DNA of 64,000 nucleotides, from positions 124,001 through 188,000 of the forward strand of contig NZ_SJDM01000004.1 of assembly GCF_004761865.1 (NCBI RefSeq). The letters are read 5' to 3'. Every line of letters starts with the position of its first letter. The first letter of the stretch is position 1. Made by a program: the position numbers and the translations under genes. A model generated the notes under the pieces. The model saw only the letters and a list, made by a program, of their open reading frames with translations. It did not search any database and had not been told where the DNA came from. Shown here piece after piece: positions 4,891-15,939 of the stretch. This DNA is from Crenalkalicoccus roseus (GTDB lineage Bacteria > Pseudomonadota > Alphaproteobacteria > Acetobacterales > Acetobacteraceae).

Positions 4891-6105
4891 GTGGCATCTC
4901 GGGCGGGTGGGTCGGTCGGGTTGCTGGTGGCCGGGGCGCTGCTGCTCCCACCCCGCCCCCTGGGGGCGGAAGAGGGGAAGCCGCAGCTCCGCCTATTCGG
5001 CGACACGCTGACGCTGCGTCCCACCGGGCTGCTGCAGCTCGATGCCGGCAGCGTCTTCGGCAGGACGCCGTCCGACGCCCCGGATGGGGGCCTCAATCCG
5101 CGCCGGCTGCGCCTGGGGCTGCAGGCGGAGTGGCGGGAGGACCTCACCCTGATCCTCGTCTGGGATTTCGGCGGCACTCCGGGCAGCCGTTCCCGCCTGC
5201 ATGAGGCGAGCATCGCCTATTCCGGCCTCGATCCCTTCACCCTCACCGTCGGCGTGTTCCGGCCCCGCCTGACGTTGGAAGGCTCTCAGCGCGCAGCGGA
5301 AACGCTGTTCCTGGAACGCGCCGCCATCGTCGGCGCGGCAAGCTCCCTCGCCGCCGGCTCCGGCCGGGTCGCGGCGGAACTCCGGGCCGAGGGGGAAAGG
5401 TGGATGGCCGCTGCGGCGCTGACCGGCGGACGCACCGGCCCGGGCGAGGACAGCACCCAGCGCGGCGCGACCGCCCGCCTCGCCGGGCTGCCGGTCAGGC
5501 GGGAGGAAGGGCCGGCCCTGCACCTTGGCCTGTCGGCCTCCTGGTCCTTCCGGCCGCCGCGCGGGGGCCTGGGCAGGGCGGTGGAGCTGTCCGAACCGCC
5601 CGAGCTGGCCCTCGACCGCACCGACCCTCCCCTGGACACCGGGGCGATCCGCGCCGGCGCCGCGCGCAGCGGCGGCGTGGAGGCCGGCCTGGCCCATGGC
5701 CGCCTCTGGGCACAGGGTGAATGGCATGGCATCGCGGTGGAACGCGCGGGCGGCGGTACGCTGCGCTTCTCCGGCTGGTACGCGCAGGCTGCCTGGGCCC
5801 TGATCGGCCAGCCGCGGGAATGGGAGCCCACCCTCGGCGCCTGGGGCGCCCCGAAGCCGTCCGGCGGCTTCGACCCCGCCGCCGGGCGGTGGGGAGCGGT
5901 GGAGATCGGCGCGCGCTATTCCGTGCTCGACCTGAACGATGGCGACATCCGCGGCGGGCGCCAGCGGGTCTGGAGCGCCGGCCTCGGCTGGTGGCCGGTG
6001 GAAAGCCTGCGCCTCCTCGCCCAGTACCAGTACGGCCAAGTGCGCGGCGGCGGGACCGATCGCAGCTTCCAGGCCCTCGCCCTGCGGGCGCAGTGGCGCT
6101 TCTGA
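4891..6105 (+). CDS. OprP/OprO-type outer-membrane porin
   Basis: A 404-residue protein with an N-terminal signal (GLLVAGALLLPPRPLGA) and a body of alternating amphipathic strands ending in aromatic WRF, as expected for an outer-membrane beta-barrel recognised by BamA. Features such as LRPTGLLQLDAG, NPRRLRLGLQAEW and GLDPFTLTVGVFRP resemble the phosphate-selective porin family. The family often passes phosphate or polyphosphate, but anion selectivity cannot be read here. The GTG start is supported by GGAGGGGG just upstream. No operon partner is obvious; the next gene converges from the minus strand 16 bases away. Confidence 0.75.
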   Translation: MASRAGGSVGLLVAGALLLPPRPLGAEEGKPQLRLFGDTLTLRPTGLLQLDAGSVFGRTPSDAPDGGLNPRRLRLGLQAEWREDLTLILVWDFGGTPGSRSRLHEASIAYSGLDPFTLTVGVFRPRLTLEGSQRAAETLFLERAAIVGAASSLAAGSGRVAAELRAEGERWMAAAALTGGRTGPGEDSTQRGATARLAGLPVRREEGPALHLGLSASWSFRPPRGGLGRAVELSEPPELALDRTDPPLDTGAIRAGAARSGGVEAGLAHGRLWAQGEWHGIAVERAGGGTLRFSGWYAQAAWALIGQPREWEPTLGAWGAPKPSGGFDPAAGRWGAVEIGARYSVLDLNDGDIRGGRQRVWSAGLGWWPVESLRLLAQYQYGQVRGGGTDRSFQALALRAQWRF

Positions 6106-6121
6106 GGAAGTGTGGCTCCCC

Positions 6122-8443
6122 CTATCCGTCCCGTGCCGTGCGGATCGCCTGCCAGACCCGGAGCGGCGTCGCCGGCATGTCGAGCGCGGTGACGCCGAGC
6201 GGCGCCAGCGCGTCCAGCACCGCCGCCATCACCGCCTGCGGCGCGGCGATGGCGCCGGCCTGGCCGCAGCCCTTCACCCCGAGCGGGTTGGAGGCGGTGG
6301 GGCATTCCCCGAAGCCGATCTCCAGCGCCGGCAGGTCCGCCGCCCGTGGCAGGCAGTAATCCATGAAGGAGGCGCTGAGGAGCTGGCCGGAGCCCGCCTC
6401 GTAGGCCACCGCCTCCATCAGCGCTTGGCCGATGCCCTGGGCGACGCCGCCCTGCACCTGCCCCGCGGTGAGCAGCGGGTTCACCAGCCGCCCGTAATCG
6501 TCCACCGCCTGGTAGCGGAGCAGGGCGATGGCCCCCGTCTCGGGGTCCACCTCCACCTCCGCCACATGGCAGCCGGCGGGGAAGGTGACACGGTCCTCCG
6601 GGTTCAGCGCCTCGGCCGCGAGGCCCGGCGCCATGCCCTCGGGCAGGCTGGCGGGGTCGCGCGCCGCCTCGGCGACGGCGGCGAGCGTCACGCCGCGCTC
6701 GGTGCCGCGCACGGTGAAGCGCCCGGCGGCGAAGTCGAGCTCGGAGGGCGCCGCCTGCAGCAGATGCGCGGCGATGGCGCGCGCCTTGCCGAGCAGCGCC
6801 TCCGCCGCCAGCACCAGCGCCCCGCCGCCGAGATGCAGCGAGCGCGCCCCGCCATGCCCGGCGCCGCGCGGAATCGCCGCGGTGTCGGCCTGCACCAGCC
6901 GGAACCGCTCCACCGGCAGGCCGAGGCGGTCCGCGGCGACCTGGGCGAAGCTCGTCTCGTGCCCCTGGCCGTTGGACTGCGTGCCGAGCAGGATGGACAC
7001 GGTGCCGTCCGCCTCGAAGCGCAGCCCGCCCCATTCCTGCGGCGCGCCGCGCGCCGTCTCCAGGAAGCAGGCGAGGCCGAGGCCGCGCCGCCGGCCGCGC
7101 GCCTCGCTCTCCGCGCGGCGGGCGGCGAAGCCGGGACGGTCGGCGAGGCGCGCCGCCTCCTCCAGGTTCTCGGCGAAGCGCCCACAATCCATCATCATGC
7201 CGAGGGCGCTGCGGTAGGGGAAATGCCGCACCAGGTTGCGCCGGCGCAGCTCCACCGGATCGAAGCCGCAGCGCCGCGCCGCCTCCTCCACCAGCCGCTC
7301 GGTCAGGTAGTTCGCCTCCGGCTTGCCGGCGCCGCGATAGGCGTCCACCGGCGCGGTGTTGGTGAAGGCGCCGCGCACCTCGACCAGCATCGCCGGGATG
7401 GCGTAGGGGCCGCCGACGGCGGTGGAGAAGGAGTTGGTCGGACAGGCCGGCCCGGCCGGCGAGCAGTAGGCGCCGAGGTCGGCGATCATCTCCGCGTGCA
7501 GCGCCAGGAAGCGCCCCTCCGCGTCCAGCGCCAGCCGCCCGCGCCCCTGCACCGCCCGCCCATGCACGGCGGCGAGGAATTCCTCGGTGTGGTCCGCCAC
7601 CCACCTCACCGGCCGGCCGAGGCGGCGCGCGGCGGAGAGCAGCATCACGTATTCGGGAAAGAGAAAGTTCTTCAGACCGAAGCCGCCGCCGACATCGGGG
7701 CAGTGCACGCGGATGCGCTCGCGCGGCAGGCGGAACACGGCATCGGCGAGCTGGTCGCGGATGTTGTGCACGGACTGGCCGGCGAGCAGCAGGTCGAAGC
7801 CGCCCGTCGCCGGATCGTGGCGGGCGATGGCGGCGCGCGGCTCGATCGGCGCGGCGTGGACGCGCTGGTTGACGAGGTCGAGCGCCACCACATGGGCGGC
7901 GTCGGCGAAGGCCGCCTCGGTGGCGGCGCGGTCGCCCTTCTCGAAGCGGAAGGCGAGGTTGCCCGGCGCCTCCTCCCACAGCAGCGGCGCGCCGGGGACG
8001 AGGGCCGCGGGCGCCTCGGTCACCGCGGGCAGAGGCTCGTAGGCGACGCGGATCGCCTCCGCCGCGTCGCGCGCCGCCGCCGCGCTGTCAGCGACGACGA
8101 AGGCGACGCCCTCGCCCACATGGCGCACGCGCTCCCGCGCCAGGGCATGGCGCGGCGGGATGATGAGCGGGCCGCCAACGGTCTGCACCGTCGCGGGGCA
8201 GGGCAAGGGACCAAGCCCCTCCGCCGCCAGATCCTCCCCGGTCAGCACCGCGCGCACGCCCGGCATGGCGCGCGCCGCCTCGGCATCCAGCGCGGCGATG
8301 CGGGCATGGGCGTGTGGGGAGCGCAGCACCACGCCATGGAGCTGTCCCGGCTCCTGGAGATCCGCGACATAGCGCCCCCGACCGGTGAGGAAGCGCGCAT
8401 CCTCCACGCGGCGCAGGCCGCGGCCGACGAAGCCTTCGGGCAT
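6122..8443 (-). CDS. Xanthine-dehydrogenase-family molybdopterin-binding subunit (CoxL-like, orphan)
   Basis: A 773-residue large subunit of the molybdenum hydroxylase family. It has the N-terminal a/b hammerhead (GRGLRRVEDARFLTGRGRY), the DVGGGFGLKN Moco-binding loop, the AYRGAGKPE segment of form-II CoxL relatives and the C-terminal LGVKGCGQAGAIAAP motif. In active family members the corresponding GxGE glutamate is the catalytic base; here it is Gln728 (CAG). Hydroxylases of this family normally need FAD and 2Fe-2S subunits, but neither gene is adjacent. An M20 amidohydrolase lies 9 bases upstream on the same strand. The substrate is unknown and activity is doubtful unless partner subunits lie elsewhere. 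Confidence 0.85.
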   Translation of the reverse strand: MPEGFVGRGLRRVEDARFLTGRGRYVADLQEPGQLHGVVLRSPHAHARIAALDAEAARAMPGVRAVLTGEDLAAEGLGPLPCPATVQTVGGPLIIPPRHALARERVRHVGEGVAFVVADSAAAARDAAEAIRVAYEPLPAVTEAPAALVPGAPLLWEEAPGNLAFRFEKGDRAATEAAFADAAHVVALDLVNQRVHAAPIEPRAAIARHDPATGGFDLLLAGQSVHNIRDQLADAVFRLPRERIRVHCPDVGGGFGLKNFLFPEYVMLLSAARRLGRPVRWVADHTEEFLAAVHGRAVQGRGRLALDAEGRFLALHAEMIADLGAYCSPAGPACPTNSFSTAVGGPYAIPAMLVEVRGAFTNTAPVDAYRGAGKPEANYLTERLVEEAARRCGFDPVELRRRNLVRHFPYRSALGMMMDCGRFAENLEEAARLADRPGFAARRAESEARGRRRGLGLACFLETARGAPQEWGGLRFEADGTVSILLGTQSNGQGHETSFAQVAADRLGLPVERFRLVQADTAAIPRGAGHGGARSLHLGGGALVLAAEALLGKARAIAAHLLQAAPSELDFAAGRFTVRGTERGVTLAAVAEAARDPASLPEGMAPGLAAEALNPEDRVTFPAGCHVAEVEVDPETGAIALLRYQAVDDYGRLVNPLLTAGQVQGGVAQGIGQALMEAVAYEAGSGQLLSASFMDYCLPRAADLPALEIGFGECPTASNPLGVKGCGQAGAIAAPQAVMAAVLDALAPLGVTALDMPATPLRVWQAIRTARDG

Positions 8444-8452
8444 CCGCCCCTC

Positions 8453-10066
8453 CTACAGCCGCTCGCCCGTGCCCGCGCCGTCCCGCGGCGTCGGGATCCA
8501 CCATTCCTCGCCGCGCGCGGTGGTGACGTATTCCGGCCAGCGCAGGTCCACCGGCGGAGGGAAATCGCGCGGCAGCAGCGGCGCCACCCACTCCGTGCCG
8601 CCGATGCCGCCGCCGGTGCGGCGCCGCCACTCCGCCTGCGCCGCCTCGAGCAGGCCCGGCTTCAAAGCGAGGTCAAGGAAGGTGAGCGCCATGGTGCGGC
8701 CGGCGACGAACATGCCCGGATCTATCGCCGCCGGCAGGCCGCCGAGGGCGTTGTGCGCCCAGGCAGGATACTCGTAGCCCGGCTCGGGCGGGCGCAGCCG
8801 CGGCCGCGCCGTCAGCAGCCGCACCGTCGGGCAGTGCCAGCAGAATTCCACGTAGTCGTCGGCGGAGAGATGCTTCTGCCAGGCGGGCAGGAAGGCGCGC
8901 AGGCCGGCCTCGAATTCCTGCGGCGAGGTCAGGCGGGTGTTGGCCGGGGCGAAGGGATCCTCCATCGGCGCGAGGCCGAGTGTCTTCTGGATCTCCCGCG
9001 CGAAGGAGACGGCCTCCTTCCCATAGGCGGGCGGCCCCACCTCCTGCAGATTGGCCCAGGTGGCCTCGGTCAGCACGGCGTTGGGCAGGCCGACCCGGGT
9101 CTTGGTCACCCAGCGCAGCGAGGCGACGCAATGCGTCGCCGCCGCCGCGCTGCGCGCGTTGGCGACGAGGATGTCGGCGATCCGCTGCTGCAGCGCCAGC
9201 GAGGGGGAGCGCCAGGAATACTGGATCTGCGCGAAGCGCGGCGCCAGGTTGTCCGAGGTGGCGTCGCCGCCGGCGAGGATGAACTCGTTCAGCGTCCAGG
9301 CCCCCGTGTGGGGGAACATCGCCTCCTTGGTGGTCTTGGTGGTCATGTACATCAGCATCAGCGCGTCGATCGCGCCCGGCGCGCGCGCCGCGGCGTGGCC
9401 GATGTCGCGGATCGGCAGCAGGGTCTTGTCTATCCAGGTCTCCGGGGCGAGGCATTCGAAGGTGAAGACCGCCGACCAGTAGGCGCCGAACTGCGTTTCC
9501 GCCGTGACGGTGCTGGTGGCGTGCGGGTGGTACACCACCGCGGCGTCGAGCCCGTCGTAATAGCCCTTGGCGGCGTGCACCGGCTTGGAGCCGCACACCT
9601 TCTCCGCCGGTTCTCCGAACAGCACGAGCTGCCCGGGAATGCCGTGCCGCTCCATCGCCGCCCTGGCCGCCAGGATGCCGGTCAGCGCCGCGGTGCCGAG
9701 GGAGGAGTGCGGGTCAGTATGCCCTGCCGCCCAGGGATGCAGACCCTCCCGCGGCGCCTTCCAGGGCACCACCTGCTGCGACTGCGCCGGCACCGCGTCG
9801 TATTCGGCGAAGCTGGCCAGCACCGGGCCGCCATTGCCCCGTCCCTGGCCCCAGCGGGCGCAGAAGGCGGTGGGCATGCCGCCCGAACCCTCCTCGACCT
9901 CGAAGCCTTCCTCGCGCAGCAGCGCCACGTAGGCGGCGGCCGATTTGTATTCGCGCCAGGCGGGCTCGGCGTAGTCCCAGATGCGCCGATTGAAGGCGGA
10001 GAGCCGTGCCTCGTTCGCCGCGATCCAGTCCAGCGCCGTCCGGCGCGCCTCCGGCAGCTCCGCCAT
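8453..10066 (-). CDS. M20-family amidohydrolase (AbgB/HmrA-like)
   Basis: A 537-residue metallopeptidase-fold hydrolase, likely cleaving an amide such as an N-acyl or aminobenzoyl amino acid in the cytoplasm. It shows ASFAEYDAVP, a metal-binding segment G-H116-T-D118-P-H120 where relatives have GHxCxH, GEPAEKVCG at residues 152-160, and a dimerisation-domain region rich in TKTTKEAMFPHTGAW. In most relatives the catalytic pair is Glu-Glu; here E155 is followed by K156. It sits just upstream of the CoxL-like gene, so the two may be co-expressed in degrading a nitrogenous compound; that link is inference. Confidence 0.8.
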   Translation of the reverse strand: MAELPEARRTALDWIAANEARLSAFNRRIWDYAEPAWREYKSAAAYVALLREEGFEVEEGSGGMPTAFCARWGQGRGNGGPVLASFAEYDAVPAQSQQVVPWKAPREGLHPWAAGHTDPHSSLGTAALTGILAARAAMERHGIPGQLVLFGEPAEKVCGSKPVHAAKGYYDGLDAAVVYHPHATSTVTAETQFGAYWSAVFTFECLAPETWIDKTLLPIRDIGHAAARAPGAIDALMLMYMTTKTTKEAMFPHTGAWTLNEFILAGGDATSDNLAPRFAQIQYSWRSPSLALQQRIADILVANARSAAAATHCVASLRWVTKTRVGLPNAVLTEATWANLQEVGPPAYGKEAVSFAREIQKTLGLAPMEDPFAPANTRLTSPQEFEAGLRAFLPAWQKHLSADDYVEFCWHCPTVRLLTARPRLRPPEPGYEYPAWAHNALGGLPAAIDPGMFVAGRTMALTFLDLALKPGLLEAAQAEWRRRTGGGIGGTEWVAPLLPRDFPPPVDLRWPEYVTTARGEEWWIPTPRDGAGTGERL

Positions 10067-10135
10067 AATGCCTCCCCCTCTCCGGTGCGCGCGCAGAGTA
10101 GGGCCCGGGCGTGGCCGCGCGCCAGCCGCCTGCGC

Positions 10136-10738
10136 TCAGGATGCGAGCCTTTCCTCGACGAAGTCGAGCCGGTCCTGTCCCCAGAAGATCTCCTCGCCGA
10201 TCACGTAGCTCGGCGCGCCGAACACGCCGCGCCCGAGCGCCGCCTGCGTGTCGGCCTCCCGCCTCTCCCGCCAGCGCGGCTCGGCGCCGAGGCGCATCAC
10301 CGCTTCAGCGTCCAGGTCGCATTCGGCGATCAGGGCCGAGAGGGTGGCGGGATCGCCCGTGTCCTTCTCCTCCTCCCACAGCGCCTTCAGGACGCGGTGG
10401 GCAAGGCGGAGGGCCGGCGCATCGCCCTGCGTCTCGCGCAGCGCGATGACGCAGCAGGCGGCGGGCAGCTCGTCGGCCGGGAAGTGCCTCGGCTGCAGCT
10501 GGATCGGGATGCCGAGGCGGTCGCGCCAGCGCCTGAGCTCCTGCAGCCGGTAGGCCTGGCGCTGCGGCGAGCGCTTCGGCAGCGGCAGCCCGCCCGAGCC
10601 GGCGAAGATGGCGCCGAAATCCACGGGGAACACGCGCAGGCCGGCGCCGTGCCGCGCCGCCATCGCCTCGATGCGCGCCGCGCCGAGATGCGTCCAGGGC
10701 GAGTTGAGGGAGACGTAGTAGTCAATGTGGCGGGCCAT
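10136..10738 (-). CDS. DsbA-fold 2-hydroxychromene-2-carboxylate isomerase-like protein
   Basis: A 200-residue thioredoxin-fold protein of the kappa-class GST/HCCA isomerase group. It begins MARHIDYYVSLNSPWTHLGA, with Ser-Pro-Trp where oxidoreductases would have Cys, and ends with GAPSYVIGEEIFWGQDRLDF, the cis-Pro region. The group includes the glutathione-dependent isomerase NahD of aromatic degradation and many proteins of unknown substrate. The frame stays open upstream, but the ATG at 10738 gives the family N-terminus. It overlaps the upstream GNAT gene by 17 bases. Confidence 0.8.
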   Translation of the reverse strand: MARHIDYYVSLNSPWTHLGAARIEAMAARHGAGLRVFPVDFGAIFAGSGGLPLPKRSPQRQAYRLQELRRWRDRLGIPIQLQPRHFPADELPAACCVIALRETQGDAPALRLAHRVLKALWEEEKDTGDPATLSALIAECDLDAEAVMRLGAEPRWRERREADTQAALGRGVFGAPSYVIGEEIFWGQDRLDFVEERLAS

Positions 10739-11261
10739 CGGGTCTCTCCTGGAAGGCAAGGAACTCCCGGCGGTCCAGCGCGCACCGCACCTCATGCCCC
10801 GCCGTCCCGCGCGGCCGCAGGCCGAGCTTGGCGGCGACGCGCAGCGAGGCGGCGTTCTCCGCATGGATGCCGGCGACGATGCGCGGCAGGCCGAGGGCGA
10901 CGAAACCGTGGCGCAGCACGGGCGCCGCGGCCTCGGTGGCGATGCCGCGGCCCCAGGCGGCGGGGCGCAGCCGCCAGCCGATCTCGATCTCCGGCCCCTC
11001 GCCATCCTCCGGGATCAGCAGCACCCAGCCGAGGAAGCCGCCCGCGGCGGCGTCCAGCACGCTCCAGTAGCCGAGGCCCGGCGGCCAGGGGCCGAGGGTG
11101 CGCGCCTCGATGAAGGCGCGGTGACCCGCCGGATCCTTCCAGGGGCCGTCCACGAAGCGCGTCACCCCCGGCTCGCGGTCCATCGCCAGGCAGGCCTCGG
11201 TATCCGCCAGGCGCCGGGGGCGCAGGCGGAGGCGCGGCGTGGCGAAGCAGGGCTGGCTCAC
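10722..11261 (-). CDS. GNAT-family N-acetyltransferase (RimJ/RimL-like)
   Basis: A 179-residue acetyltransferase opening with TPRLRLRPRRLADTEACLAM, the usual RimJ/RimL entry, and carrying the acetyl-CoA binding region WGRGIATEAAAPVLRHGF. The likely acceptor is an amino group on a protein or small molecule; it cannot be specified. The GTG start forms a GTGA overlap with the stop of the CoA-transferase gene upstream, so translation is probably coupled. Confidence 0.85.
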   Translation of the reverse strand: MSQPCFATPRLRLRPRRLADTEACLAMDREPGVTRFVDGPWKDPAGHRAFIEARTLGPWPPGLGYWSVLDAAAGGFLGWVLLIPEDGEGPEIEIGWRLRPAAWGRGIATEAAAPVLRHGFVALGLPRIVAGIHAENAASLRVAAKLGLRPRGTAGHEVRCALDRREFLAFQERPDGPPH

Positions 11262-11950
11262 CCGGCGAGAAGCGGGGCGCCGGTGGCCGCCCGCGCCGCC
11301 TCCAGCGAAATGCCCGGTGCCAGCTCCCGCACCCGGAAGCCCTCGCCCACCGGCTCGAACAGGCCGAGATTGGTGCAGGCGAGCGTCACCACCCCGCGCG
11401 CCGTCACCGGCAGGGCGCAGTCGCGCACCAGCCGTGGCGCCCCGTTCCTCTGCGTGTGCTCGAGGATGACGAACACCCGCCTCGCCCCGGCGGCCAGGTC
11501 CATCGCGCCGCCGATGGTGCCGCCCTTGGCGCCGGCGAGCTTCCAGTTGGCAAAGTCGCCGCGGCAGGAGACTTCGTAGGCGCCGAGCACGGTCACGTCG
11601 ATGCGGCCGCTGCGGATGATGGCGAAGCTGTCGGCGTGGTGGACGATGGAGGCGCCGGGGCGCAGCGACACGTTCTGTCCGCCGGCATTCACCAAGTGCA
11701 GGTCCTCCTCGCCCGGCGGCAGCACCGGGCCGTAGCCGATCACGCCGTTCTCCGCGTGGTAGGTCACCTCGCGGCCCCCGATGTCGGTATTGGAGCAGAG
11801 CGTCGGGATGCCGATGCCGAGATTGACCACCCAGCCGTCCTGGAACTCCTGCGCCACCCGGTCGGCCATCTGCTGGCGGCTCCAGCCGGTGGCCGGGGCG
11901 CTCGCGGGCGTGGGGGCCTGAGCCGGCCCGCCGGACAGGGGCCGGCTCAT
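11258..11950 (-). CDS. 3-oxoacid/acetate CoA-transferase, subunit B
   Basis: A 230-residue beta subunit of a class I CoA transferase, which moves CoA between acyl donors and 3-oxoacids or short acids. It shows VNLGIGIPTL, the signature ENGVIGYGP with the catalytic-site glutamate of the family (as in SxENG), and GGQNVSLRPGASIVHHADSF. An ATGA overlap with subunit A at 11947-11950 fixes the start. With its partner it forms the usual alpha-beta pair (AtoDA/PcaIJ/ScoAB); the exact acid is unclear. Confidence 0.9.
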   Translation of the reverse strand: MSRPLSGGPAQAPTPASAPATGWSRQQMADRVAQEFQDGWVVNLGIGIPTLCSNTDIGGREVTYHAENGVIGYGPVLPPGEEDLHLVNAGGQNVSLRPGASIVHHADSFAIIRSGRIDVTVLGAYEVSCRGDFANWKLAGAKGGTIGGAMDLAAGARRVFVILEHTQRNGAPRLVRDCALPVTARGVVTLACTNLGLFEPVGEGFRVRELAPGISLEAARAATGAPLLAG

Positions 11951-12687
11951 CGCGCGCGCTCCACCCGGCGGACGGTCCACAGCCCCTCGGGCGGAGGCGG
12001 GACCTTCACCATGCGCTGCACGAACATTCCCGGCAGGTGGATGTGGTCGGGGTCGAGGGCGCCGACGGGCAGGATCTCCTCCTCCACCTCGGCGATCGTC
12101 AGCTTCGCCGCCATCGCCATGATGGGGCAGAAATTCCGCTGCGCCAGGCGGAACACCAGGTTCCCCGCGGCATCGGCCTTCCAGGCGCGGATCAGCGCCA
12201 CGTCCACCGGCAGCGCGTATTCCAGCAGGTATTCGCGGCCGTTGATCACCCGCGTCTCGCGCCCCTCCGCCAGCTCGGTGCCGACCGCGGTCGGCGTGTA
12301 GAAGGCCGGAATGCCGGCGCCGGCGGCGCGCAGCCGTTCGGCCAGCGTGCCCTGCGGCACCAGCTCGGCCTCCACCTCGCCGGCCTCGTAATACCGGGTG
12401 AAGGGGATCACGTCGGTCGGGCGATTGGCGGCGGTGAAGCTGCAGATCACCTTCCGCACCTGCCGGTTCTCGACCAGCATCGCCACGTCGGGCATGCGCG
12501 GCTGGTGCGCCCCGCCGGTGGTGTTGGCGACGCAGGTGAGGTCCTTCGCGCCCTGGGCCAGCAGCGCCCGGATCAGGTTGTAGGGCGTGCCCGGCCCGGC
12601 GAAGCCGCCGAAGGCGATCACCGCCCCGTCCGGCATGTCCGCCACCGCCTCGGCGAAGCTGCCGAGGATCTTGCCTCGTCCCGCCAT
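11947..12687 (-). CDS. 3-oxoacid/acetate CoA-transferase, subunit A
   Basis: A 246-residue alpha subunit with the family features GAVIAFGGFAGPGTPYNLI near the N-terminus and the glycine-rich CoA-binding region, then YLLEYALPVDVALIRAW. It leads a likely four-gene minus-strand operon (subunit A, subunit B, GNAT, isomerase-like protein) whose junctions all overlap. The 139 bases upstream, shared with a divergent plus-strand gene, would hold its promoter; no clear match is visible. Confidence 0.9.
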   Translation of the reverse strand: MAGRGKILGSFAEAVADMPDGAVIAFGGFAGPGTPYNLIRALLAQGAKDLTCVANTTGGAHQPRMPDVAMLVENRQVRKVICSFTAANRPTDVIPFTRYYEAGEVEAELVPQGTLAERLRAAGAGIPAFYTPTAVGTELAEGRETRVINGREYLLEYALPVDVALIRAWKADAAGNLVFRLAQRNFCPIMAMAAKLTIAEVEEEILPVGALDPDHIHLPGMFVQRMVKVPPPPEGLWTVRRVERAR

Positions 12688-12826
12688 CGGTCCCGCGTTC
12701 CCTCCATGGTTTGGGGAAAGCTTAGGGCGGTCCGCGCGGGGGCGCGAGCGGGCAGCGTCCCGCCCCGCATTCCCGCCCGCGAATCGGTGACGAAACCTTG
12801 CGGCGCGCCATGCGTCCGGGCCGACA

Positions 12827-13837
12827 ATGAGGCTGTTCCGCTGCCAGGCCTGCGGCCATCGGCTGCATTTCGAGGAGCGGCGCTGCGGGCGCTGCGGGCA
12901 CGCGCTCGGCTACCTGCCGGGCGCCGAGACGCTGAGCGCGCTCGAGCCCGATGGCCGCGCCTGGCGGGCCCTGGCCATGCCGGAGGGGCGCTTCCGCTAC
13001 TGCGCGAATGCCGACCATGAGGCCTGCAACTGGCTGCTGCCCGCCCGCTCGCAGGACTCGCTCTGCCTCGCCTGCCGGCACAACCGCACCCTGCCCGACT
13101 TGGCGGCGCCGGAGAACCTTCCGCCCTGGCGCCGCTGGGAGGAGGCGAAGCGGCGCCTGATCTACACCCTCCGCCGCCTCAACCTTCCGATGCCGGATCG
13201 CCGGCAGGATCCGGCGCGCGGCCTCGCCTTCGACATCCTTCCCGATCCGCCCGGCGGCCCGCCCGTGGTGTCGCGACACGCCGATGGCGTGATCACCCTC
13301 GCCCTGGCCGAGGCGGAGGCGGCTGCAGGGTCTCGCCCCGGCGGGGAACCGGGCGGCCCTGGCTCCACCCTGCTGTGCCGCCTGCGCCAGCAGAGCGGGC
13401 ACTACTACTGGGACCTGCTGGTGCGGGATGGCGGGCGGCTCTCCGCCTTCCAGGCCGCCTTCGCCGGGGGGCGCCCCGCGCGGGCCCGGGGGGAGGAGGC
13501 GGGGGACGCGCCGCGGGAGGCCTTCGCCCGGAGCTGGGCGCAGTGGCTGCAGATGCTGGACATGCTCGAGATGGCGGCGTCGCTCGAACTCTGCCTCGGT
13601 TCCGGAGAGGGCGAGTCCTGGGCGGCGCGCGGCTTCGATCCCTATGCCGCGCCCGATGCGGAAGCGCTGGCGGCGCCGTGGCGGCACCTCGCGCGGGCGC
13701 TGGAGGGGCTGAACCGCTGCGCGGGCGCGCCGGGGCACGATCAGGCCGCACCGCCGTCCGAGGCCCTGTCCCGGATCGGCCTCATCCACCGGCTGGCGCG
13801 CGAGGCGAGGGGCGGCCAGGGCGAGGCGCGCCCCTGA
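12827..13837 (+). CDS. Zinc-binding metallopeptidase-like protein with lost HExxH
   Basis: A 336-residue protein of the COG4307/zinc-binding peptidase-like family. An N-terminal zinc ribbon (CQACGHRLHFEERRCGRCGH) and a second Cys/His set (YCANADHEACNW, CLACRHNRT) are followed by the alpha-helical domain. Family members usually read RHEIGHYYW at the active site. Here DNA 13385-13411 gives R187-QQSGHYYW, so the first His and the catalytic Glu of HExxH are Gln188 and Gln189. The protein may therefore bind zinc only through its ribbon and act non-catalytically. It stands alone on the plus strand. Confidence 0.7.
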   Translation: MRLFRCQACGHRLHFEERRCGRCGHALGYLPGAETLSALEPDGRAWRALAMPEGRFRYCANADHEACNWLLPARSQDSLCLACRHNRTLPDLAAPENLPPWRRWEEAKRRLIYTLRRLNLPMPDRRQDPARGLAFDILPDPPGGPPVVSRHADGVITLALAEAEAAAGSRPGGEPGGPGSTLLCRLRQQSGHYYWDLLVRDGGRLSAFQAAFAGGRPARARGEEAGDAPREAFARSWAQWLQMLDMLEMAASLELCLGSGEGESWAARGFDPYAAPDAEALAAPWRHLARALEGLNRCAGAPGHDQAAPPSEALSRIGLIHRLAREARGGQGEARP

Positions 13838-13862
13838 GCGAGGCGCCTCTCCTCCGGAGGGG

Positions 13863-14087
13863 TCAGCGCCCGCCACCCTCCACCCACAGCACCGCCCGCG
13901 CCAGGGCGAGCATCGCCTCCACGGCGCCGCAGGGCACCGCCAGCACCGCCGGGAAGGACAGCAGCGCCAGTACGAGGCCGCCGCCCTGGGCCAGCACCGC
14001 AAGGGGCGAGAGCAGGGCCAGCGCCATCAGCATCAGGAAAGGCGTTTCGGCACGCGCCGCGGGCGCGACCGCCATGGCTCGCCGCAT
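13863..14087 (-). CDS. Small hydrophobic membrane protein
   Basis: A 74-residue protein of unknown function, not recognised. After MRRAMAVAPAARAETP come two hydrophobic stretches (FLMLMALALLSPLAVLAQ, and GLVLALLSFPAVLAV to LARAVLW), so it is probably an inner-membrane protein with two helices. The ATG at 14087 is chosen because GGAGAC lies upstream at good spacing. It converges on the peptidase-like gene and sits 64 bases downstream of an oxidoreductase gene on the same strand. Confidence 0.5.
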   Translation of the reverse strand: MRRAMAVAPAARAETPFLMLMALALLSPLAVLAQGGGLVLALLSFPAVLAVPCGAVEAMLALARAVLWVEGGGR

Positions 14088-14736: not shown

Positions 14737-14886
14737 GCCCGGCCGTCCCATGGGGCGGCCCCGGATCGCCGCCGCCGCCCCAGCCTGCCAAGGGGGGACG
14801 AGGCGCGTCAATCGCGCCCCGGGGGCTTACCGGGGCGGCGGAATTGCGCCCATCATCGCCGCCGCTGCGGAAGGGGGAGAACCACC

Positions 14887-15939
14887 ATGCCCAAGGTCCA
14901 GGCGGAGCGGCTGCGGGAGATCGGGCAGGCGCTGCTCGTCGCCGCCGGCGTGCCGGAGGAGGAGGCGGCGACGGTGGCGCGCCATTGCGTGAACGCCAAC
15001 CTCGCCGGCCATGACAGCCACGGGGTCATCATGATCCCGAACTACATCGAGCGGGTGAAGGTCGGCCACATCCTTCCCGGCGCGCCCTTCACCATCGTGC
15101 GGGAGAGCCCGACCACCACCGTCGTGGACGGCAATTGGGGCTTCGGCTACGTCGTCAACGAACGCGCGATGCGGCTGACGATCGAGAAGGCCGCGGCGCA
15201 GGACATCGCCGCCACCACCGTGTTCCGCCAGGGCCATGTCGGGCGGCTGGCGAGCTATCCGCTGATGGCCGCCGAGGCCGGGATGATCGGCATGGCCTGG
15301 GCGGATTCCGGCCGCTCGCCGAAATCCGTCGCTCCCTTCGGCGGGCGCGAGGCGCGGCTCGGCACCAACCCCTGGGCGATCGCCGTGCCTTCCGACCTGG
15401 AGGGGCCCTTCTGCATGGACTTCGCCACCTCGGCGGTGGCGATGGGCAAGGTGAAGCTCGCCGAGGCGCGCGGGCAGGAGATTCCGCGCGGCTGGGTGGT
15501 GGACGGGGAGGGGGAGCTCACCACCGACCCGAAGAAGCTCGCGGGTGGCGCGCTGCTGCCCCTCGGCGGGCCGGGGGAGGGCTACAAGGGCACCGCCCTC
15601 GCCGCCATGGGCGAGGTGTTCTGCGGGATCCTGACCGGCCTCGGCTTCGGCGTGGAGCCTTCGGGACGGCACAATGACGGCTGCTTCCTCCTTGCCATCA
15701 AGGTGGAGGCGTTCCGCCCGCTGGCGGCGTTCCGCAGGGAGGTCGCGGAATTCGCGCGCTACCTGAAGGCGACGCCGCCGGCCAGGGGCAGCCAGGGCGT
15801 GCTCTACCCCGGGGAGGTCGAGCACCTGGCGGCGCGAAGCCGCGCCGTCGAGGGGATCGAGATCGAGGAGGCCACCTGGGCGAAGCTGCGTGGGCTGGCC
15901 GAGGCCTCCGGCCTGGCGGACCGGCTGGGCTTCGCCTGA
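14887..15939 (+). CDS. Malate/L-lactate-type dehydrogenase (Ldh/YlbC family)
   Basis: A 350-residue NAD(P)-dependent oxidoreductase of the LDH2/MDH2 family, unrelated to classical malate dehydrogenase. It shows NLAGHDSHGVIMIPNYIERV with the conserved catalytic-site His, then FRQGHVGRLASYPLMAAEAG, LGTNPWAIAVPS and the C-terminal PGEVEHLAARSR. Substrates in the family include malate, sulfolactate, ureidoglycolate and 2,3-diketogulonate; none can be chosen. AAGGGGGAGA precedes the ATG. It is monocistronic and faces truA. Confidence 0.9.
   Translation: MPKVQAERLREIGQALLVAAGVPEEEAATVARHCVNANLAGHDSHGVIMIPNYIERVKVGHILPGAPFTIVRESPTTTVVDGNWGFGYVVNERAMRLTIEKAAAQDIAATTVFRQGHVGRLASYPLMAAEAGMIGMAWADSGRSPKSVAPFGGREARLGTNPWAIAVPSDLEGPFCMDFATSAVAMGKVKLAEARGQEIPRGWVVDGEGELTTDPKKLAGGALLPLGGPGEGYKGTALAAMGEVFCGILTGLGFGVEPSGRHNDGCFLLAIKVEAFRPLAAFRREVAEFARYLKATPPARGSQGVLYPGEVEHLAARSRAVEGIEIEEATWAKLRGLAEASGLADRLGFA

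Follow-up and report, generated by a model that had tools for sequence, protein, structure and literature searches.

The gene and its surroundings

The question raised by this locus of Crenalkalicoccus roseus is why a gene of a zinc-peptidase family is still open when the HExxH motif of its active site has been replaced. Judging from sequence comparisons in this one genome, it is probable, if far from certain, that the partner genes of the peptidase have been lost, that its orphaned catalytic domain has been released from selection, and that the zinc-ribbon half remains under selection, probably because of a binding role. The features discussed are listed here in coordinates of the window, which is the whole stretch of 64,000 nucleotides that was analysed; G034 is the closest relative by identity (54%).

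12827-13837, plus strand: orphan Peptidase_Mx / Zn_ribbon_DZR_6 gene, 336 aa (open reading frame, Pfam)
12827-13105, plus strand: double zinc ribbon, residues 1-93, eight cysteines intact, ordinary rate (PF10005, branch length)
13106-13315, plus strand: front part of the peptidase domain, residues 94-163, near-ordinary rate (branch length, codon-position rates)
13316-13366, plus strand: strongly eroded stretch ahead of the active-site motif, residues 164-180 (branch length, alignment)
13388-13402, plus strand: QQSGH replacing HExxH, residues 188-192 (motif reading against relatives)
13463-13612, plus strand: second conserved motif, eroded, with about 19 residues deleted, residues 213-262 (alignment, branch length)
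12688-12826, no strand: 139-bp gap from the CoA-transferase gene to the peptidase gene (comparison with G034)
11947-12687, minus strand: CoA-transferase subunit, flanking marker common to G034 (81-82% identity)
14856-15939, plus strand: malate/L-lactate dehydrogenase (Ldh_2), flanking marker, start approximate

The gene at 12827-13837 is an open reading frame of 336 codons on the plus strand. Its product was matched in Pfam by Zn_ribbon_DZR_6 (PF10005) over residues 3-93, with 108.7 bits against a cut-off of 23.4, and by Peptidase_Mx (PF15887), in two adjacent pieces, with 130.5 bits against a cut-off of 27. In a profile search of the genome (4.43 Mb, 99.95% complete, 127 contigs) this was the sole PF15887 gene, which rules out a second intact copy elsewhere. 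No match to the 336-aa protein was found in NCBIfam, and PADLOC gave none among five proteins. A sigma-70 consensus scan at the gene found no promoter, and a terminator scan likewise found none. The AlphaFold2 model of the protein, made with an alignment of three sequences only, had a mean pLDDT of 33.8 and was set aside. The best match in a profile search of solved structures was weak (9urd, a zinc metallohydrolase lipoprotein, E 0.09) and lay over the second motif; it was given no weight in assigning ligands. Two very long open reading frames in the window, 5939-11113 on the plus strand and 12722-14002 on the minus strand, overlap opposite-strand genes; they are probably an effect of high G+C and not genes.

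Loss of the active-site motif

Residues 188-195 of the C. roseus protein read QQSGHYYW, so that the HExxH expected of an active peptidase is absent. A sequence-only reading of this DNA had reported this replacement of HEIGHYYW, with both the first zinc His and the catalytic Glu turned into Gln, and the reading frame and the alignment bear it out. The first His and the Glu of HExxH were kept in all 120 relatives that were read, and QQSGH is thus not the usual state of the family. Among 80 other aligned loci, His188 and Glu189 were each present in 80 and His192 in 79, and HExxH was found in a further 15 family-level and 25 class-level loci. The 80 loci were made up of 78 from the family sample, one from Methylobacterium gossipiicola and one from a Methylorubrum populi assembly. 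Of the 78 other genomes with the peptidase among 200 sampled, 77 supplied these 78 loci, G058 giving two and G199 being omitted. A larger search of the family gave a PF15887 match in 176 of 397 genomes, and the motif was read in part of these.

Two other loci departed from the usual form. In L054 (G095:C36:156000-157900) the motif is HEIGN, with Asn in place of the second zinc His, in a protein that otherwise resembles its relatives. The class-level locus L149 (G589:C37:3600-4768), an open frame of 249 codons near a contig end, matches the G034 protein only from residue 135; it is either a peptidase that lacks zinc ribbons or a gene truncated by the contig end.

Erosion of the catalytic domain

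Strongly conserved columns, meaning those conserved in 93% or more of the 80 relatives, numbered 92, with 27 before residue 149 and 65 after it. The C. roseus protein has kept 26 of the 27 front columns. After residue 148, 27 columns were kept, 34 were changed and 4 were deleted (26/27 against 27/61 with the deleted columns excluded; Fisher, 1.2e-6). The lost residues include Glu177, Tyr179, Arg180, His185, His228, Trp230, Asp232, Glu235, His239 and His242, and about 19 residues are absent between residues 214 and 222. Erosion was strongest at residues 164-180 and 213-336, and the stretch around the motif (residues 181-212) was better kept. The second motif, which presumably carries the third zinc ligand, is HPWEDFAE in most relatives and APREAFAR here; Glu231 is kept, and Glu235 is among the residues lost from it.

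All eight cysteines of the zinc ribbons are present in the alignment, and the sequence-only reading was right to call the ribbons intact. Its view that the remainder of the domain is also intact did not survive the column counts. The same counts support its description of the protein as a pseudo-peptidase, the catalytic part having lost the catalytic Glu along with the first zinc His and over half of its conserved positions. A hidden frameshift was ruled out, as the frame aligns with those of the relatives from start to end. Of the pattern that the sequence-only reading itself had named as a sign of simple pseudogenisation, a part is seen: relatives have the intact motif and the remainder of the catalytic domain has decayed, but neither a frameshift nor a stop codon was found.

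Evolutionary rates of the two halves

Terminal branch lengths were estimated for 81 sequences on a fixed topology under LG+G4. For the zinc ribbons (residues 1-93) the C. roseus branch was 0.225 (rank 42 of 81, median 0.232), for residues 94-163 it was 0.487 (rank 17 of 81, median 0.239), and for residues 1-163 together it was 0.315 (rank 34 of 81). For residues 164-336 it was 3.48, the longest of the 81, with the next at 1.17 and a median of 0.253; when this rear branch was forced to 0.3, twice the log-likelihood difference was 189. Within the rear half, the branch was 10.0 for residues 164-180 and 3.3 for residues 213-262 (both rank 1 of 81), and 0.50 (rank 6 of 81) for residues 181-212 with the motif excluded. 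Misalignment was rejected as the source of the long rear branch, which remained at rank 1 (2.76) when residues 205-262 were left out. With the split placed at residue 148 instead, the front branch was 0.27 (rank 39) and the rear branch was 3.18 (rank 1).

Changes were also polarised by codon position, starting from bases common to at least 90% of 13 near relatives, which were taken from the 80 and were among the best matches. Over residues 1-163, changes at codon positions 1, 2 and 3 were 9/90, 5/93 and 8/40 (0.10, 0.05 and 0.20). Over residues 164-336 they were 28/102, 42/118 and 15/55 (0.27, 0.36 and 0.27), and the corresponding values for G034 over the same residues were 6/107, 6/124 and 10/62. 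A looser threshold gave 0.31, 0.36 and 0.39 for the C. roseus rear half, with a small third-position excess. From the rate split and the codon-position changes, constraint seems normal on the front half and largely lifted from the rear half. The claim of the sequence-only reading that the protein has been retained is thus supported for residues 1-163 only, which evolve at an ordinary rate.

Genomic context in relatives

In seven of the 14 stretches examined in relatives (L087, L088, L090, L091, L093, L094 and L095), the peptidase gene stands at the end of an operon in the order DUF2126, ATP-grasp/Alpha-E, transglutaminase, peptidase. DUF2126 is missing from the L089 stretch, and in the L096 stretch (G003:C38:95000-110000) DUF2126 is the only one of the partners present, on the other strand. 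The peptidase and DUF2126 genes lie on opposite strands in L096, L004 and L005, which is unlike the operon order. None of the three partner genes was near the peptidase in five of the 14 stretches (L092, L097, L098, L099 and L123), and the link between peptidase and operon is therefore not universal.

In G034, the CoA-transferase gene and the next three open reading frames are collinear with those of C. roseus, at 63-81% identity. One of these three is a DsbA-like gene; the other two we take to encode an acetyltransferase and a second CoA-transferase subunit. Beyond the CoA-transferase gene in the opposite direction, G034 carries a DUF2126 gene that also has a transglutaminase domain, then an ATP-grasp/Alpha-E fusion gene, another transglutaminase gene and finally the peptidase gene. 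Counted from the CoA-transferase start, the peptidase start lies 7.2 kb away in G034 and 139 bp away here. The Ldh_2 gene adjoins the peptidase gene in G137, G062 and G185 (82-84% identity). As these flanking genes are common to relatives, the locus is most likely ancestral and the operon genes were most likely lost from it.

Mere distance from the operon was rejected as a sufficient cause of motif loss. In G185, G024, G167, G099 and G261, HExxH is kept and the three partner genes are absent from the stretches examined (E 1e-15); Alpha-E is present elsewhere in the genome in the first four of these.

Partner families across genomes

The C. roseus genome (99.95% complete) gave no match to any of the four partner families searched, namely Alpha-E, CP_ATPgrasp_2, Bact_transglu_N and DUF2126 (PF04168, PF14403, PF08379 and PF09899). 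In the sample of 200 family genomes, the peptidase was found in 79, Alpha-E in 160 and both in 76. Among the 79, the peptidase occurs without Alpha-E only in the C. roseus genome and in two others, whose completeness is 85% and 66%. No stand-alone zinc ribbon was found in this family sample, PF10005 occurring in the same 79 of the 200 genomes as the peptidase. Of 385 genomes in the class sample, 35 had some PF15887 match. All 26 other genomes with a full-length match also have Alpha-E; eight genomes had short matches of 28-76 profile positions, four of them above the cut-off and five with Alpha-E.

Alternative explanations

The whole gene could be a dying relic of the lost operon, with a zinc-ribbon half that became useless only recently and is yet to decay, and with a frame that owes its openness in part to the scarcity of stops at this G+C. 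We consider this unlikely, although the partner families are gone, the rear half has little or no third-position excess, and there is one copy in one genome. Uniform decay would hit both halves, and the rate split is strong; the eight cysteines are also kept. When the rear half was left to decay neutrally in simulations under 18 settings with 400 runs each, the frame stayed both open and unshifted in at most 0.5% of runs at the indel rates assumed, and was merely stop-free in 9-30%. This is weak evidence against full neutrality, because the indel rates were assumed and open reading frames are likelier to be noticed. As simulated neutral decay seldom left such a frame, some selection may still act on the tail.

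A further alternative is a full-length protein in a new role, its rear half having changed under new selection and not under none. The rear frame is open to the native end, with length differences in frame, residues 181-212 are better kept, and the G+C of third positions stands at 0.92-0.97 in residues 182-336, but at 0.79 in residues 149-181. This explanation nevertheless appears improbable, as the changes in the rear half are about equal at the three codon positions, as expected of relaxed selection, and as G+C at positions 1 and 2 is above that of G034 across most of the rear half, which fits relaxed and not redirected selection. That the protein is still a metallopeptidase with replacement ligands is very hard to sustain; His192 and Glu231 remain, but the catalytic Glu has gone together with the first zinc His and many more of the conserved residues. 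An error of sequencing or assembly can practically be dismissed. The sequence does come from a single assembly in 127 contigs, but dozens of in-frame changes are limited to one part of one protein, and the four partner domain families are independently absent genome-wide.

Discussion

On the preferred reading, loss of the partners with continued selection on the zinc-ribbon half, the gene would be all that is left of a peptide-ligase/transglutaminase operon (DUF2126, ATP-grasp/Alpha-E, transglutaminase, Peptidase_Mx). The partner genes would have been deleted, and without the ligase/transglutaminase system the peptidase activity would have lost its use, releasing selection on residues 164-336. 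This order of events, with operon loss before catalytic loss, is what we infer. The protein would now be a catalytically dead zinc-ribbon protein, in which the double ribbon and the segment to about residue 163 may still bind a putative partner, and the remainder would be a loosely constrained tail.

The domain order and the neighbours common to relatives place the protein with Peptidase_Mx (PF15887) and Zn_ribbon_DZR_6 (PF10005, formerly DUF2248), from which it differs in having lost HExxH. In a 2013 survey, HExxH is given for 100% of DUF2248 (PF10005) members, and no substituted HExxH is listed there for the Peptidase_Mx / DUF2248 family (PMC3650047). The same survey describes substituted HExxH in many zincin families, the Glu being most often replaced by Gln (PMC3650047). 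A substituted motif is thus shared with dead zincins (pseudo-metalloproteases), whereas here the first His and the Glu are both Gln and their loss coincides with the absence of the operon. Clusters of ATP-grasp, Alpha-E and transglutaminase genes have been proposed to act as a system for peptide synthesis or tagging (PMC5666114, PMC6376114, PMC3597751). The operon of the relatives has the ATP-grasp, Alpha-E and transglutaminase parts of such clusters, including the Anbu operon; in C. roseus, unlike those clusters, the four partner domain families searched are gone and the peptidase-derived protein alone remains. Neither the components nor the notion of a dead zincin is new. A literature search that did not cover the 2009 founding operon paper found no report of HExxH loss in Peptidase_Mx, of motif loss coinciding with operon loss, or of front and rear halves under such sharply different constraint. 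A text search for papers linking the peptidase with the ATP-grasp operon found none.

What the Peptidase_Mx family and the ATP-grasp/Alpha-E/transglutaminase operons do is not settled; for the Anbu operon, the authors of one paper state that they know of no suggested role with experimental confirmation (PMC6376114). The pattern in C. roseus suggests that the peptidase activity serves a purpose only alongside the partner genes. The conservation of the zinc-ribbon half at the level of working relatives suggests, from sequence comparison, that this half continues to do work of its own. It is possible, and only a little short of probable, that the double zinc ribbon is a self-standing module that remains fully selected after the catalytic site and the operon have gone. 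If so, the ribbon would also do something in the working relatives that does not rely on that system, such as binding a cellular partner. In this natural case of loss, the zinc ribbon is set apart from both the peptidase part and the operon, which hints at an independent role of the ribbon half.
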